Source: Candidatus Wolframiiraptor allenii
GTDB lineage: Archaea > Thermoproteota > Nitrososphaeria_A > Caldarchaeales > Wolframiiraptoraceae
DNA: 35,740 bases
Assembly: GCA_023539495.1 (NCBI GenBank)
Contig: JAKCEV010000005.1
Span: 1 to 35,740, forward strand
Direction: 5' to 3'
Part shown: in pieces, positions 373 to 34,472 of the stretch
How positions within the stretch are numbered: the stretch's first letter is position 1
How the letters are laid out: every line of letters starts with the position of its first letter
Made by a program: the position numbers and the translations under genes
Notes under the pieces: generated by a model
The model's database searches: none
The model's input: the letters and a program-made list of their open reading frames with translations, nothing else
Told to the model about the DNA's origin: nothing

Positions 373-604
373 AGCCGAAGTCCATCACAACACCCCATTT
401 TTATTTCTCCTCCATTCTCAGGGTAGATAGTGTCCAAATAACGGGTTTATTTACATAGCTGAAGACCTCCCATAGTAGCCTCGCGAGTAGAAATGGTCGC
501 CCCTAGAGAGTATTTAAAGCCTTATTTGGGCATCCACCATAACATACAATACTTTAAATGATGCCGAAAATAATCCCCCAAATAATGCTAATAACTCCAA
601 GCCC
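373..604. other. Spacer with no supported gene
   Basis: A-T rich stretch between the broken small gene and the structured RNA. Short TTTAAA-like motifs occur near 520 and 552 and could serve as TATA boxes for the RNA starting near 605. I see no open frame with convincing coding character. A minus-strand frame spanning 514-747 mostly reads through the RNA repeat and is taken as chance. Confidence 0.4.
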
Positions 605-738
605 TGAGTCCCACTTGGGATAGGGGGTAATGGCCGGAGACCCGGCCAAGGGCTAAACCTCCCAAAAGGGAGGGATGTAGCCCAAACCTCCCCCGCACTA
701 ACAGGAATCCTCATCATCCATGGCGGGGAGGAGGTCAG
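605..738 (+). ncRNA. Structured RNA repeat, copy 1
   Basis: About 134 bases closely matching 33874-34007, with unrelated flanks. Four paired elements can be drawn: TCCC/GGGA (609-612 with 617-620); a 7-bp hairpin 631-637 with 642-648 closed by AGAC; a hairpin 658-663 with 668-673 enclosed by GGGCT/AGCCC (650-654 with 679-683); and a long-looped hairpin with GCGGGGAGG at 723-731 pairing to 687-696. The second hairpin differs from copy 3 by a compensatory C-G to T-A change. It does not carry motifs I recognise from RNase P RNA, SRP RNA or 5S rRNA. Strand is inferred from the fold being best (AGAC/AAAA loops) in this direction; the transcript itself is not proven. Confidence 0.6.
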
Positions 739-766
739 AGGGCTCATAGGAGCAATGCCAATAGCT

Positions 767-17595: not shown

Positions 17596-17877
17596 TCAAG
17601 AGATATTATGGGGGTAGGGGAGGGTTGATGCTCTATTAATGACCCCCTCCCTACTCAGGTTAGGGAGGTTTGGGCTAAGCAAAATCATCAGCATGCTAAA
17701 GCTGTCATAGGCAAGCGTCCTAACAATGACCGATGGCGGCCTATACTTCTCCATGACAATCGGCGTCGAGTTTATGTTATCCAAGATATCGATGAACTCC
17801 TTTAGGAGGCCAGCCTCCTTGAAGGCATCCCTAAACTCCTTATTCGACCACCGAATCCCAGGCCGCAGCATACTCAC
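17596..17877 (-). CDS. Small protein, family A (paralogue of 19684-19890)
   Basis: 93 residues. The central block (FKEAGLLKEFIDILDNINSTP and the following ERY/EKYRPP region) matches FEGAGLLREFIVVLDYVDSTP of the gene at 19684, while the C-terminal 25 residues differ and look less ordered (NLPNLSREG). No known domain recognised. Upstream on the same strand (17878-17905) is a partly preserved copy of the conserved element that precedes the paralogue. It is thus a member of the same small-gene set, perhaps with an altered or decayed tail. Confidence 0.5.
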   Translation of the reverse strand: MSMLRPGIRWSNKEFRDAFKEAGLLKEFIDILDNINSTPIVMEKYRPPSVIVRTLAYDSFSMLMILLSPNLPNLSREGVINRASTLPYPHNIS

Positions 17878-17905
17878 TCACCAACGATATCCCCCTAATA
17901 CAGGC
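17878..17905 (-). repeat. Conserved upstream element, partial copy
   Basis: Contains CCTAATACAGGCCTGCCCTT, matching CCTAATACATGCCTGCCCTT of the copies at 1-75 and 19889-19945, but loses the TTATTTCTTGG core. It lies immediately upstream of the family A gene (minus strand). Confidence 0.55.
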
Positions 17906-18026
17906 CTGCCCTTCCCCCAACCCTGATCCTAGCAATCTTCCCGACCCTCACCTTCCTCCCTCTTATAAGGAGGAGCATGGAGAGGACCATTATAGGGAAA
18001 ATAGGGGCGGGGTCGTGTGAGAAGAA

Positions 18027-18398: not shown

Positions 18399-18535
18399 CC
18401 AAGAAATAGAGAGGAGAGGGAACGTTCTTATAGCGTTCTGGGCTTTTTAGCCCTTCCTCCCTCTTCTCATTGGGAGGCTTTTGGGGGGAACGCGGGCTCC
18501 CCACATCAATCTGGCGCCGGCCGTCAAAAGAGGTT
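18399..18535 (-). ncRNA. Probable omega (re)RNA of the TnpB element
   Basis: Directly after the tnpB stop, the minus strand folds into consecutive hairpins: GGGGA/TCCCC, CCTCCC/GGGAGG, a perfect GGGCT-AAAA-AGCCC and GAACG/CGTTC. TnpB guide RNAs (omega RNAs) come from exactly this position, the 3' end and flank of tnpB. The 3' limit and guide start are not defined; I end the feature at CCAAGAAATA (18399-18408), an inverted copy of the TATTTCTTGG core found upstream of the operon at 19926-19935. Confidence 0.5.
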
Positions 18536-19687
18536 TTAGGGAGTTTTGGCATCCATGTACTCCTCGTAGTATCGGCGTGTCAGGTTTCTTACAGCAATCG
18601 CGTCCCTATCCTCCTCCAAGCCGCATCTCCGGCACCTCATCAGCCTGCGCCCGTTCAAGCTTTCTTCTAGCTCATCTCCGCATATAGGGCATATGCTTGA
18701 GGTATACGCTGGATCAACATACTTCACGTTCAATCCATGGAGCTTCGCCTGATACTCCAATATCCGCTGAAACCTCTTATAACCCCATCTATGTATCCGC
18801 CCATTAAGCTCCCTCGAATCTTTATCTTCCTTATAGACTTCAAGATTTTCCATTACTATTACTGTCGCGCCAACCTCCTTGGCCTTACTGATAATCTCCT
18901 TAGCCGCCCTATAGTAGATCTCCTCGACTCTATGCCTTTCACGGCCCCTATACTTCCCCAGCAACCTCGCTTGCAACTCCCTTTTACGAATTTTCGACTG
19001 TATCCGCCGGCGCTTAAGGAAATATCGCGTCCTAATAATCCCCTCATTCGTCTCAAACCTCTCAATGAAATCATCGTTACCATATACGATGACATTCTCA
19101 TTAACGTCAACGGCGATAACCTTGGCATCCGCGCCCACCTCCGGCAACACAACAGCCCGGCGAAAGGCGACGTTCAGGTAAAGATTACCATTATCCTTCA
19201 GCATCAGCCGCGCCTCACCCGGTTTCATGTCCTTGAACTTATCGTGATACCTCCCGTGAAGTAGCCTTAATGCAATCCATCTCCCTCCATGGACCGCTAT
19301 TGAAGCCCTCCAGCCCTCCACATCAAGCTTGAATAGATGATTATCCAGCCATATTACCTGCCCCTTGAATGTCGGCCTCTCCTTCTCACACATCCCCATC
19401 TTCTTCAACTCTATGAAGGACTCGTAAATGCTGGTGGCAAGCCGGCATGCAGTAAAAATATAATTTGATGGTAATGTTGAATGCCTCTGCCGTAGCTCGC
19501 GATACTTCGCATGATGCAGGCTAATAAAACTAGTGATCCTATGCAAGTGGGCGTATTCTATGAGCTCATTCACGATCCTCTGATACTCCTTGAACAGGCG
19601 ATGTATCTCTGAGATCGTCGCCTCATCAACATCCGTGAGATCCACCTTAAACCTCGCGGTAAGCTTTATCTCTTCAACCGGCATCAT
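18536..19687 (-). CDS. tnpB: TnpB-family RNA-guided nuclease (IS200/IS605 type)
   Basis: 383 residues. The RuvC-like active site is intact: Asp194 (VIAVDVN), Glu280 (VIVMENLE) and Asp362 (EEDRDAIAVRN). The zinc ribbon has Cys333, 336, 352 and 355 (CPICG, CRRCG). The length is typical. There is no tnpA transposase in the window, so the unit cannot move by itself. The start ATG overlaps the stop of the 68-residue gene upstream (TGATG), so translation is coupled. TnpB cleaves DNA matching its guide RNA and maintains the element at its site; intact catalytic residues suggest it is still active. Confidence 0.93.
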   Translation of the reverse strand: MMPVEEIKLTARFKVDLTDVDEATISEIHRLFKEYQRIVNELIEYAHLHRITSFISLHHAKYRELRQRHSTLPSNYIFTACRLATSIYESFIELKKMGMCEKERPTFKGQVIWLDNHLFKLDVEGWRASIAVHGGRWIALRLLHGRYHDKFKDMKPGEARLMLKDNGNLYLNVAFRRAVVLPEVGADAKVIAVDVNENVIVYGNDDFIERFETNEGIIRTRYFLKRRRIQSKIRKRELQARLLGKYRGRERHRVEEIYYRAAKEIISKAKEVGATVIVMENLEVYKEDKDSRELNGRIHRWGYKRFQRILEYQAKLHGLNVKYVDPAYTSSICPICGDELEESLNGRRLMRCRRCGLEEDRDAIAVRNLTRRYYEEYMDAKTP

Positions 19688-19890: not shown

Positions 19891-19945
19891 GCCTCCACAA
19901 TACCATCCTAATACATGCCTGCCCTTATTTCTTGGGGACCCGCCT
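19891..19945 (-). repeat. Conserved upstream element, intact copy (left arm)
   Basis: Matches 1-59 nearly base for base and is repeated in inverted orientation at 20262-20311. Together the two arms bracket the family B gene at 19963, each acting as the upstream region of the gene facing outward (family A to the left, zinc-ribbon gene to the right). AAGAAATAAGG read on the minus strand is a candidate TATA box. Confidence 0.65.
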
Positions 19946-20261: not shown

Positions 20262-20311
20262 TTTCCAAGAAATAAGGGCAGGCATGTATTTGAATTGTGG
20301 CGTGGAGGCGA
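20262..20311 (+). repeat. Conserved upstream element, inverted copy (right arm)
   Basis: CCAAGAAATAAGGGCAGGCA is the reverse complement of the block at 19916-19935, and GTGGCGTGGAGGC corresponds to its distal part. It leads into the ATG of the zinc-ribbon gene remnant at 20319. Confidence 0.65.
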
Positions 20312-26050: not shown

Positions 26051-26140
26051 TAGACCTTTGGTAACGACTCCTCCCTCATTGGGGGTTTAGCCTAGGGCCG
26101 GATCTCCGGCCCATTACCCCTACCCCTTTCGGGACTCGGA
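26051..26140 (-). ncRNA. Structured RNA repeat, copy 2 (diverged, minus strand)
   Basis: On the minus strand, from 26140 down, the order is GAGTCCC-GAAA-GGGGT, a hairpin GGGCCGG-AGAT-CCGGCCC (26095-26101 with 26106-26112), then GGCTAAACCCCCAATGAGGGAGG, as in copies 1 and 3. The first loop is now GAAA, a GNRA tetraloop. The final long-looped hairpin of the other copies is missing or replaced. TAGGCT/AGCCCTA can still close the third element. Confidence 0.5.
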
Positions 26141-26215
26141 GGTTATCGGCGCAACAGGCTCTTAGGTCGTAGCATACATATCCCACCAACCTGCCATCCA
26201 CAATATCTCTTGATC

Positions 26216-26262
26216 AAGCCTGCCCTTATTCATTGAGGGGTAGCCTGAAAATGGAAAGAGTG
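26216..26262 (-). repeat. Conserved upstream element, diverged copy
   Basis: Has GCCTGCCCTTATTCATTGAG and CCTGAAAATGGAAAGA, a degenerate version of the blocks at 24-75. It precedes zinc-ribbon debris just as the intact element does near 20262-20319. The region 25971-26456 holds only this, the RNA copy 2 and the decayed gene. Confidence 0.5.
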
Positions 26263-33612: not shown

Positions 33613-33731
33613 TGCGGGGGGCGGGATTCGAACCCGCGAACCCCTACGGGACCGGGTCTCCAACCAGCAATCTGACCAGTTTTCATCAGGTCTTAAGCCC
33701 GGCGCCTTTGTCCAGGCTTGGCTACCCCCGC
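33613..33731 (-). tRNA. tRNA-Leu(TAA) with a 34-base intron
   Basis: Spliced length 85, class II with the long variable arm TCCCGTAGGGGTTC. Acceptor GCGGGGG/CCCCCGC, D-arm GCCAAGCCTGGACAAAGGC, anticodon stem CCGGG/CCCGG with loop CTTAAGA (anticodon TAA), T-arm GCGGG-TTCGAAT-CCCGC, discriminator A. CCA is not encoded. TTTATAAGC on the minus strand around 33783-33791 is its promoter TATA. Confidence 0.95.
33658..33691 (-). other. tRNA-Leu intron, position 37/38
   Basis: 34 bases between CTTAAG (exon 1) and ACCCGG (exon 2), at the standard archaeal position. Both bulges would be AG|A, and the central helix (CTTA with TTGG) has one mismatch, so it is a slightly relaxed BHB. Confidence 0.85.
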
Positions 33732-33873
33732 CCATTTACAACTGAAGGCCCCGCCTTTCAAGGCGATAATAGAGGGAAAAGCTTATAAACTTTCTCTATT
33801 TTTAATCATTCTCGGTGATGAGTATTAAACTCTTTGAGCCGGTGGCGATGATGAATGGTCTACGCATAACCCC

Positions 33874-34007
33874 GAGTCCCACTTGGGATAGGGGTAATGG
33901 GCTGGAGACCCAGCCTAGGGCTAAACCTTCCAAGAGGGGAGGGATGTAGCCCAAACCTCCCCGCACTAACAGGAACCCTCACCATCTATGGCGGGGAGGA
34001 GGTCAGG
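33874..34007 (+). ncRNA. Structured RNA repeat, copy 3
   Basis: Near-identical to 605-738 although the flanks differ. Hairpins: TCCC/GGGA (33877-33880 with 33885-33888); GGGCTGG-AGAC-CCAGCC (33899-33905 with 33910-33915), carrying the compensated base pair; CCTTCC/GGGAGG (33926-33931 with 33937-33942) inside GGGCT/AGCCC; and CCTCCCCGC/GCGGGGAGG (33956-33964 with 33991-33999). The loop of the last hairpin (CACTAACAGGAA...) is almost unchanged between copies 1 and 3, suggesting a functional single-stranded segment. Its last part reads into the following gene. Confidence 0.6.
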
Positions 34008-34472
34008 TACCTGCCGCATAGGGTTGGAAGGCTGATGTACTGGTTTCAGGTTGAGGATAACATGTATGAAGTCTCATTCTGCATTATGTGGGGCGTTATC
34101 ATCGCGCTTGGATGGCTTGTCTCCGGAGGGAACTTCTGGATTGGCATAGTGCCGGTGCTTTTCATGGCCATCGGGGACTCGGCAACAGGCTTCGTCAGGA
34201 ACGCGCTCTTCAAGAGGAGGACTAAGTCATGGTGGGGAAACTTGGCCATGGCGGCTGTCTCTATACCCATAGGAGCGATACTCGGTATGGCGGGAATCAT
34301 TGCCGGAGCTCTAGCATCGGTCATCGAGCACTTCGAATGCCCCCCAATAGACGATAACATCACGGTGCCGCTGGTGTCATTCATAATACTGCTCTTGGCC
34401 GCGCTATATGCGCCCTCGCTCCTCTCGCTCGAGAGCATATCGAGGATGATCTCACCGTTCTCCAGCCTTTAA
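33897..34472 (+). CDS. C-terminal part of a CTP-dependent dolichol kinase/DGK1-like membrane enzyme
   Basis: 191 codons open, but residues 1-35 are read through the structured RNA and cannot be normal protein. The rest has GDSATGFVRN and KSWWGNLAM, then EHFECPPIDDNITVPL, which are the nucleotide-binding and DN-motifs of SEC59/DGK1/VTE5-type CTP-dependent lipid kinases, with four hydrophobic segments. About 80 residues of the usual N-terminal helices seem absent. It may start at ATG 34035 (MYWFQVEDN) or earlier, or be a 5'-truncated pseudogene. The RNA element seems to have replaced or be inserted in its beginning. Confidence 0.55.
   Translation: MGWRPSLGLNLPRGEGCSPNLPALTGTLTIYGGEEVRYLPHRVGRLMYWFQVEDNMYEVSFCIMWGVIIALGWLVSGGNFWIGIVPVLFMAIGDSATGFVRNALFKRRTKSWWGNLAMAAVSIPIGAILGMAGIIAGALASVIEHFECPPIDDNITVPLVSFIILLLAALYAPSLLSLESISRMISPFSSL

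Follow-up and report, generated by a model that had tools for sequence, protein, structure and literature searches.

The segment at positions 605-738 of the window (the whole 35,740-nt stretch of DNA analysed) recurs with unrelated flanks, which raises the question of what kind of RNA it encodes. The first-pass annotation reported structured copies at 605, 26051 (minus strand) and 33874, and offered three readings of them: a mobile non-coding element, a regulatory RNA, or an omega-RNA-like remnant. Our analysis indicates that the repeat is almost certainly the omegaRNA (reRNA) of TnpB from an IS200/IS605-family element; its kind is known, and the family itself is undescribed.

A dispersed repeat with a four-hairpin scaffold

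All three reported copies are present, together with a fourth that retains only the 3' end (Table 1). Copy 3 is 91% identical to copy 1, and in both the DNA beyond the terminal GAGGTC is unrelated, as it is in every other copy. Across the whole genome (1.32 Mb, 95 contigs) the 142-nt repeat unit yields 40 BLAST matches, and a covariance model (R1) made from 14 copies yields 65 at a cut-off of E<=0.01, partial ones counted, about 50 of which are nearly full length; the larger family predicted from three copies thus exists. The remaining model matches are fragments, mostly at contig ends. This is expected, because repeats break assembly: the contigs are fragmented at the omegaRNA repeats themselves, and many of them end inside copies.

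Table 1. Positions of the omegaRNA copies and associated features in the window.
Feature	Positions	Strand	Details
omegaRNA copy 1	594-736	+	model R1 95.9 bits, E 6e-22; 34/35 pairs
Copy 1, SL1	601-627	+	
Copy 1, SL2	632-647	+	loop AGAC 638-641
Copy 1, SL3	650-683	+	
Copy 1, SL4	687-730	+	
Copy 1, 3' end	733-736	+	GGTC
Copy 1, predicted guide	737-756	+	first ~20 nt past GAGGTC; flanks differ in every copy from here
omegaRNA copy 4, 3' end only	17641-17677	-	AGCCCAAACC, hairpin 4, GGGGGTC; R1 17 bits, E 0.005 over window
omegaRNA copy 2, decayed	26053-26149	-	R1 48 bits, E 4e-10; 21/26 pairs; hairpin 4 mostly lost; fold z-score only -1.6
Copy 3, target site and predicted TAM	33736-33739	+	TTAC
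Copy 3, ORF-less 265-nt element	33740-34004	+	left-end palindrome 33752-33765; TATA-like box 33782-33789; right end GAGGTC
omegaRNA copy 3	33862-34004	+	R1 90.9 bits; 35/35 pairs
Copy 3, predicted guide	34005-34024	+	within host gene; putative guide role

Good copies fold into four hairpins (SL1-SL4) and end with GAGGTC. Specifically, SL1 has an outer CCCC/GGGG and an inner NCCC/GGGN stem, SL2 has the sequence GGCCGG-AGAC-CCGGCC, SL3 is a GGGCTA..TAGCCC stem that encloses an inner hairpin, and SL4 is formed by CCTCCCC..GGGGAGG. Fold z-scores range from -4.6 to -6.4 in four good copies, as compared to the value in Table 1 for decayed copy 2. In an alignment of 46 copies 94.9% of the pair cells form, and 21 of the 35 pairs show changes on both sides. 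Fitting these covariation alignments to the model favours the structure, and the controls therefore weigh more than the raw percentages: two-sided changes occupy 66 cells, as compared to 17.0 +/- 6.4 after shuffling and at most 12 when the pairing partner is slid. Among 18 distinct relatives, 16 of the 35 pairs and 49 cells are changed on both sides (14.1 +/- 4.2 in shuffles). In both data sets the two-sided changes exceed all shuffles and slides, marking the RNA as a conserved structured scaffold. Covariation beyond chance had been named beforehand as a check on this fold, and its strength in the 46 copies confirms the four hairpins drawn earlier in all good copies. The compensatory C-G to T-A change reported in the GGCC/GGCT hairpin is also real (CG 44, UA 2). 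Two loops had been described as conserved; AGAC is nearly invariant, whereas CACTAACAGGA is found only where hairpin 4 has its long form. In addition, GACC in the SL2 loop could form a four-pair pseudoknot with the 3' GGTC in 50 of 63 rows, a pairing that shows no covariation because 48 of these 50 rows carry identical letters.

Association with tnpB and the cognate nuclease

The identity of the RNA is indicated by its position relative to tnpB. The DNA 5' of most copies encodes a TnpB C-terminus (..KVFNADLIAARNIL..), and a full-length intact TnpB precedes the RNA in four of them (L009, L010, L016 and L018). In intact copies the TnpB frame extends into or through the RNA, so that the RNA overlaps the 3' end of the gene. 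The same RNA is located at the 3' end of all 17 foreign tnpB relatives that possess that end, five further loci that stop at a contig end being left outside this count. The foreign hosts are mostly Desulfurococcales, along with Archaeoglobales, Bathyarchaeota and Candidatus Geocrenenecus dongiae, and one viral contig also carries the TnpB-associated RNA. In Geocrenenecus, which belongs to the same family as the window genome (Wolframiiraptoraceae), one locus (L072, a sequence identical to a segment of L114) combines a Y1 transposase, TnpB and the RNA. The scaffold ends at the element boundary GAGGTC, which is followed by unrelated DNA and which the sister genomes locate to within 3 nt. On one Bathyarchaeota contig (L122:2001-2405) only TnpB residues 1-96 are present and the omegaRNA follows directly, representing an independent internal deletion.

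The genome encodes about six intact paralogues of the cognate TnpB, and those of the four loci named above match OrfB_IS605, Cas12f1-like_TNB and guided_TnpB (Pfam, NCBIfam). In the cognate TnpB a glycine takes the place of the canonical RuvC-II glutamate (KVGYPK), and the first cysteine of the zinc finger is preceded, at a distance of six residues, by a glutamate (VDEAGTSSRC). As judged from an alignment with the window's canonical TnpB and the definition in PMC10711439, the cognate TnpB is an Ealt-type nuclease, an arrangement that occurs in Fanzors and some TnpBs (PMC10711439). D204, E337 and D372 are invariant in the own and foreign cognate TnpBs compared, and the D-E(alt)-D set is thus kept, in contrast to TldRs, which are defined by loss of the RuvC catalytic residues. 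The DPG motif that defines pro-Fanzors at RuvC-I occurs in L009 only, most members having GIDIGINN. Five of the genome's own paralogues show dN/dS values of 0.15-0.19 at dS 0.6-1.1, and by this measure they are old copies under purifying selection. An AlphaFold model of the L103 TnpB had a mean pLDDT of 49 and was set aside. In intact own copies a small gene of about 75-90 aa precedes tnpB (L018:2750-3025(-), L009:2402-2680(-)); it has no Pfam or NCBIfam match and sits at the position of the space that could hold tnpA in relatives.

No cognate tnpB adjoins any omegaRNA copy in the window, the cognate genes being located on other contigs. The earlier link to the window's own tnpB (18536-19687) did not hold up: its product belongs to another clade, with 22% identity and a canonical RuvC-II glutamate, and the model finds no match at its 3' hairpins, so it was rejected as the partner. 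This canonical-type gene has conserved 3' hairpins of its own (18420-18540 (-)), common with L041 to about AGAACG, which are likely a second omegaRNA family.

The RNA resembles the reRNA of ISDra2 TnpB in that it spans the 3' end of tnpB together with the right end, forms a structured scaffold of ~120-145 nt, has flanking DNA as its 3' extension and is paired with a target motif at the left end (PMC8612924). The last roughly 16 nt of the ISDra2 reRNA derive from flanking DNA (PMC8612924). The two differ in sequence and in target motif (TTAC here, TTGAT in ISDra2), and unlike ISDra2 the present system has an Ealt nuclease, a majority of own-genome copies without tnpB, and no TnpA in its own genome. 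By analogy with ISDra2 TnpB, the scaffold would bind TnpB and the first 16-20 nt of flanking DNA would act as the guide, the role and length given to the copy 1 guide in Table 1 having the same basis. The complex would then cut DNA that contains TTAC and a match to the guide, i.e. the same site without the insertion, and repair of the cut site would copy the element back in.

These observations bear on whether the repeat could instead be a host regulatory RNA or cis-regulatory element, such as a riboswitch, that was amplified in the genome. ORF-less copies do occur in the intervals between diverse genes, and one type carries a TATA-like box of its own, but tnpB is immediately followed by this RNA in the window genome and in foreign ones, the neighbouring genes are unrelated and no riboswitch family is detected at threshold. 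Among seven other genomes of the genus a copy is found in G003 only, a single one that follows a TnpB reading as frameshifted; the RNA's near absence from congeners also argues against a host regulator, and the expansion is therefore specific to the lineage of the window genome. At Rfam gathering thresholds the only match in the window is an intron-containing tRNA, and c-di-GMP and Moco riboswitch readings were rejected, their matches being far below threshold. We consider a regulatory origin extremely improbable, and that option of the first-pass annotation is unsupported. Its mobile-element option stands, as the RNA behaves as such an element alongside being an omegaRNA, and its omega-RNA-like remnant proved correct as to omegaRNA, the term remnant fitting copies 2 and 4 and not copies 1 and 3, in which the pairing is complete or nearly so (Table 1).

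Element ends and copies without a nuclease gene

In Desulfurococcales the left end of the element reads TTAC|AACTGAAAGCCTCGCCCTTCAGGGCGGGGAT, followed by a TATA-like box, and is typically positioned about 510 nt ahead of tnpB, a space that would fit tnpA although none is annotated there. The same TTAC precedes the left end in copy 3, in L003 and in most Desulfurococcales elements found. IS608 likewise targets TTAC (PMC8612924), and with its TTAC and palindrome the left end of copy 3-type elements is IS608-like. In copy 3 and L003 the left end and box are followed directly by the omegaRNA with no transposon ORF, and both elements have the two IS605-type ends that characterize PATE or ghost elements. 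Copy 1 adjoins neither tnpB nor a recognisable left end. Copy 4 aligns with SL4 and the 3' end and is fused to a fragment of the 75-90 aa gene described above (window 17596-17877(-)).

The right boundary of copy 3 was set from the sister genomes G002 and G003, to which homology resumes at 34008, three bases past GAGGTC. The gene at this site encodes a membrane protein to which Pfam assigns no family; it is complete in the sister genomes (254 aa in G003), and its 5' part is replaced by the element in the window genome. An ORF at 33897-34472 (+) starts inside the omegaRNA and continues in frame into the rest of this gene. The intron-containing tRNA gene (33613-33731 (-)) is located just before the left end. 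At the L003 site G003 has no insertion at the same place, and the L021 insertion is absent from both G002 and G003. Palindromes of ~40-50 nt that join the left and right ends without an omegaRNA occur at L039:924 and on the minus strand of L119 at 2712, and are the most reduced form of the element. A promoter-like or left-end-like repeat, CTTTCAGGCRGGTCCCCAAGAAATAAGGGCAGG or its reverse complement, is found in the window at 10-50, 17884-17913, 19895-19935, 20265-20309 and 26215-26256, and precedes several small genes and the genome's own tnpB operons.

For 33 copies at least 400 nt of upstream DNA could be inspected: four have an intact tnpB, one a full-length broken gene and four a gene cut by the contig end, while eight retain only a C-terminal piece and 16 have no tnpB. 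From most classifiable copies, the window's included, tnpB has thus been lost, either through internal deletion or by truncation from the 5' side. About eight ORF-less copies at different sites share a common deletion junction and therefore seem to have spread after the ORF was lost. In this group the DNA that formerly encoded the C-terminus shows 0.503 identity to intact copies, as compared to 0.485 for random windows, whereas the RNA core is 0.876 identical (0.893 between intact copies). Pair integrity is 94.7% in ORF-less copies and 97.1% in intact ones. The RNA has therefore been kept without the ORF, and the ORF-less copies are PATE-like or 'ghost' elements that persist or spread. They resemble the PATEs of Haloquadratum, likewise ORF-less derivatives with IS605-type palindromic ends, in which omegaRNA content is undescribed, whereas the full omegaRNA is retained here (PMC3119063). 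The ghost omegaRNA loci of Spizellomyces Fanzors also lack the nuclease gene, outnumber it and are associated with an Ealt nuclease; they differ in being eukaryotic, flanked by inverted repeats and shown to work in trans (PMC10432273), a use that is a proposal for the present copies.

The retained RNA fits guide-only elements that use TnpB in trans, and it likewise fits PATE-like elements whose ends are kept for mobility. That about six intact TnpBs serve the ORF-less omegaRNAs in trans is a proposal to which we give slightly less than an even chance. In its fuller form, dozens of dispersed guide-only loci would be served by about six TnpBs and would spread or persist selfishly through a shared nuclease that cuts insertion-free alleles, without a nuclease or transposase of their own; we advance this scenario tentatively, as somewhat short of evenly probable. 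The opposing explanation, which comes close to an even chance, is that these copies are merely decaying or recently amplified non-autonomous (PATE/MITE-like) elements and not guides, the right end being kept for transposition or because the copies are young. Y1 transposases require the right-end hairpin, archaea are known to contain PATEs, decay is seen in copies 2 and 4, and the junction shared at different sites points to spread as ORF-less units. Against this, SL1-SL3, at a distance from the end, show the same degree of conservation as in intact copies, while the coding DNA beside them has fallen to random identity; the base pairs are kept, and no Y1 transposase was found in the assembly. 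A third explanation, that some ORF-less omegaRNAs are domesticated and direct TnpB to certain genes for their regulation or policing, much as TldR repressors act, could account for RNA retained without an ORF and for copies inserted beside or inside genes. It appears very unlikely, as the intact TnpBs retain their catalytic residues, conservation of a guide from one species to another is not known, and at the sites tested the sister genomes have no insertion. The window genome is a natural example, in a prokaryote, of guide RNA genes outnumbering their nuclease genes severalfold, and trans use of omegaRNAs is therefore directly testable.

Relation to the archaeal RNAs sot0042 and HgcC

Two Rfam families resemble the RNA below their gathering scores. 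RF02656 (sot0042), a sense-overlapping transcript of haloarchaeal tnpB, occupies the same place and is matched over its full model length with 26-48 bits; copy 1 scores 31.2 bits (E 1e-6, full model length) and relatives up to 48.1, neither of which reaches the gathering score of 88 bits, and the archaeal phylum differs. The present RNA is thus a new archaeal omegaRNA family without an Rfam entry at threshold, for which the scaffold, end, target motif and cognate nucleases are defined.

With the RF00062 (HgcC) model, the SL2-SL4 portion at the 3' ends of tnpB scores 30-44 bits (L103, L104, L105, L106, L112, L117, L119, L120), and the score in the window genome is at most 29.9 bits as compared to a gathering score of 50. 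The function of HgcC is recorded as unresolved (PMC5732400), and no paper that names HgcC and TnpB together was found in the literature searched. In a 300-genome Thermoproteota sample 35 genomes match HgcC at E<=1e-5, and 12 of 25 loci (one per genome; L148-L172) immediately follow the 3' end of a TnpB frame and share its strand, counting L160, which has a 64-nt overlap, and excluding L158, which is on the opposite strand. The TnpB-linked loci include L148, whose HgcC match is above the gathering score. On the basis of this linkage, the orphan archaeal RNA HgcC is probably an omegaRNA.
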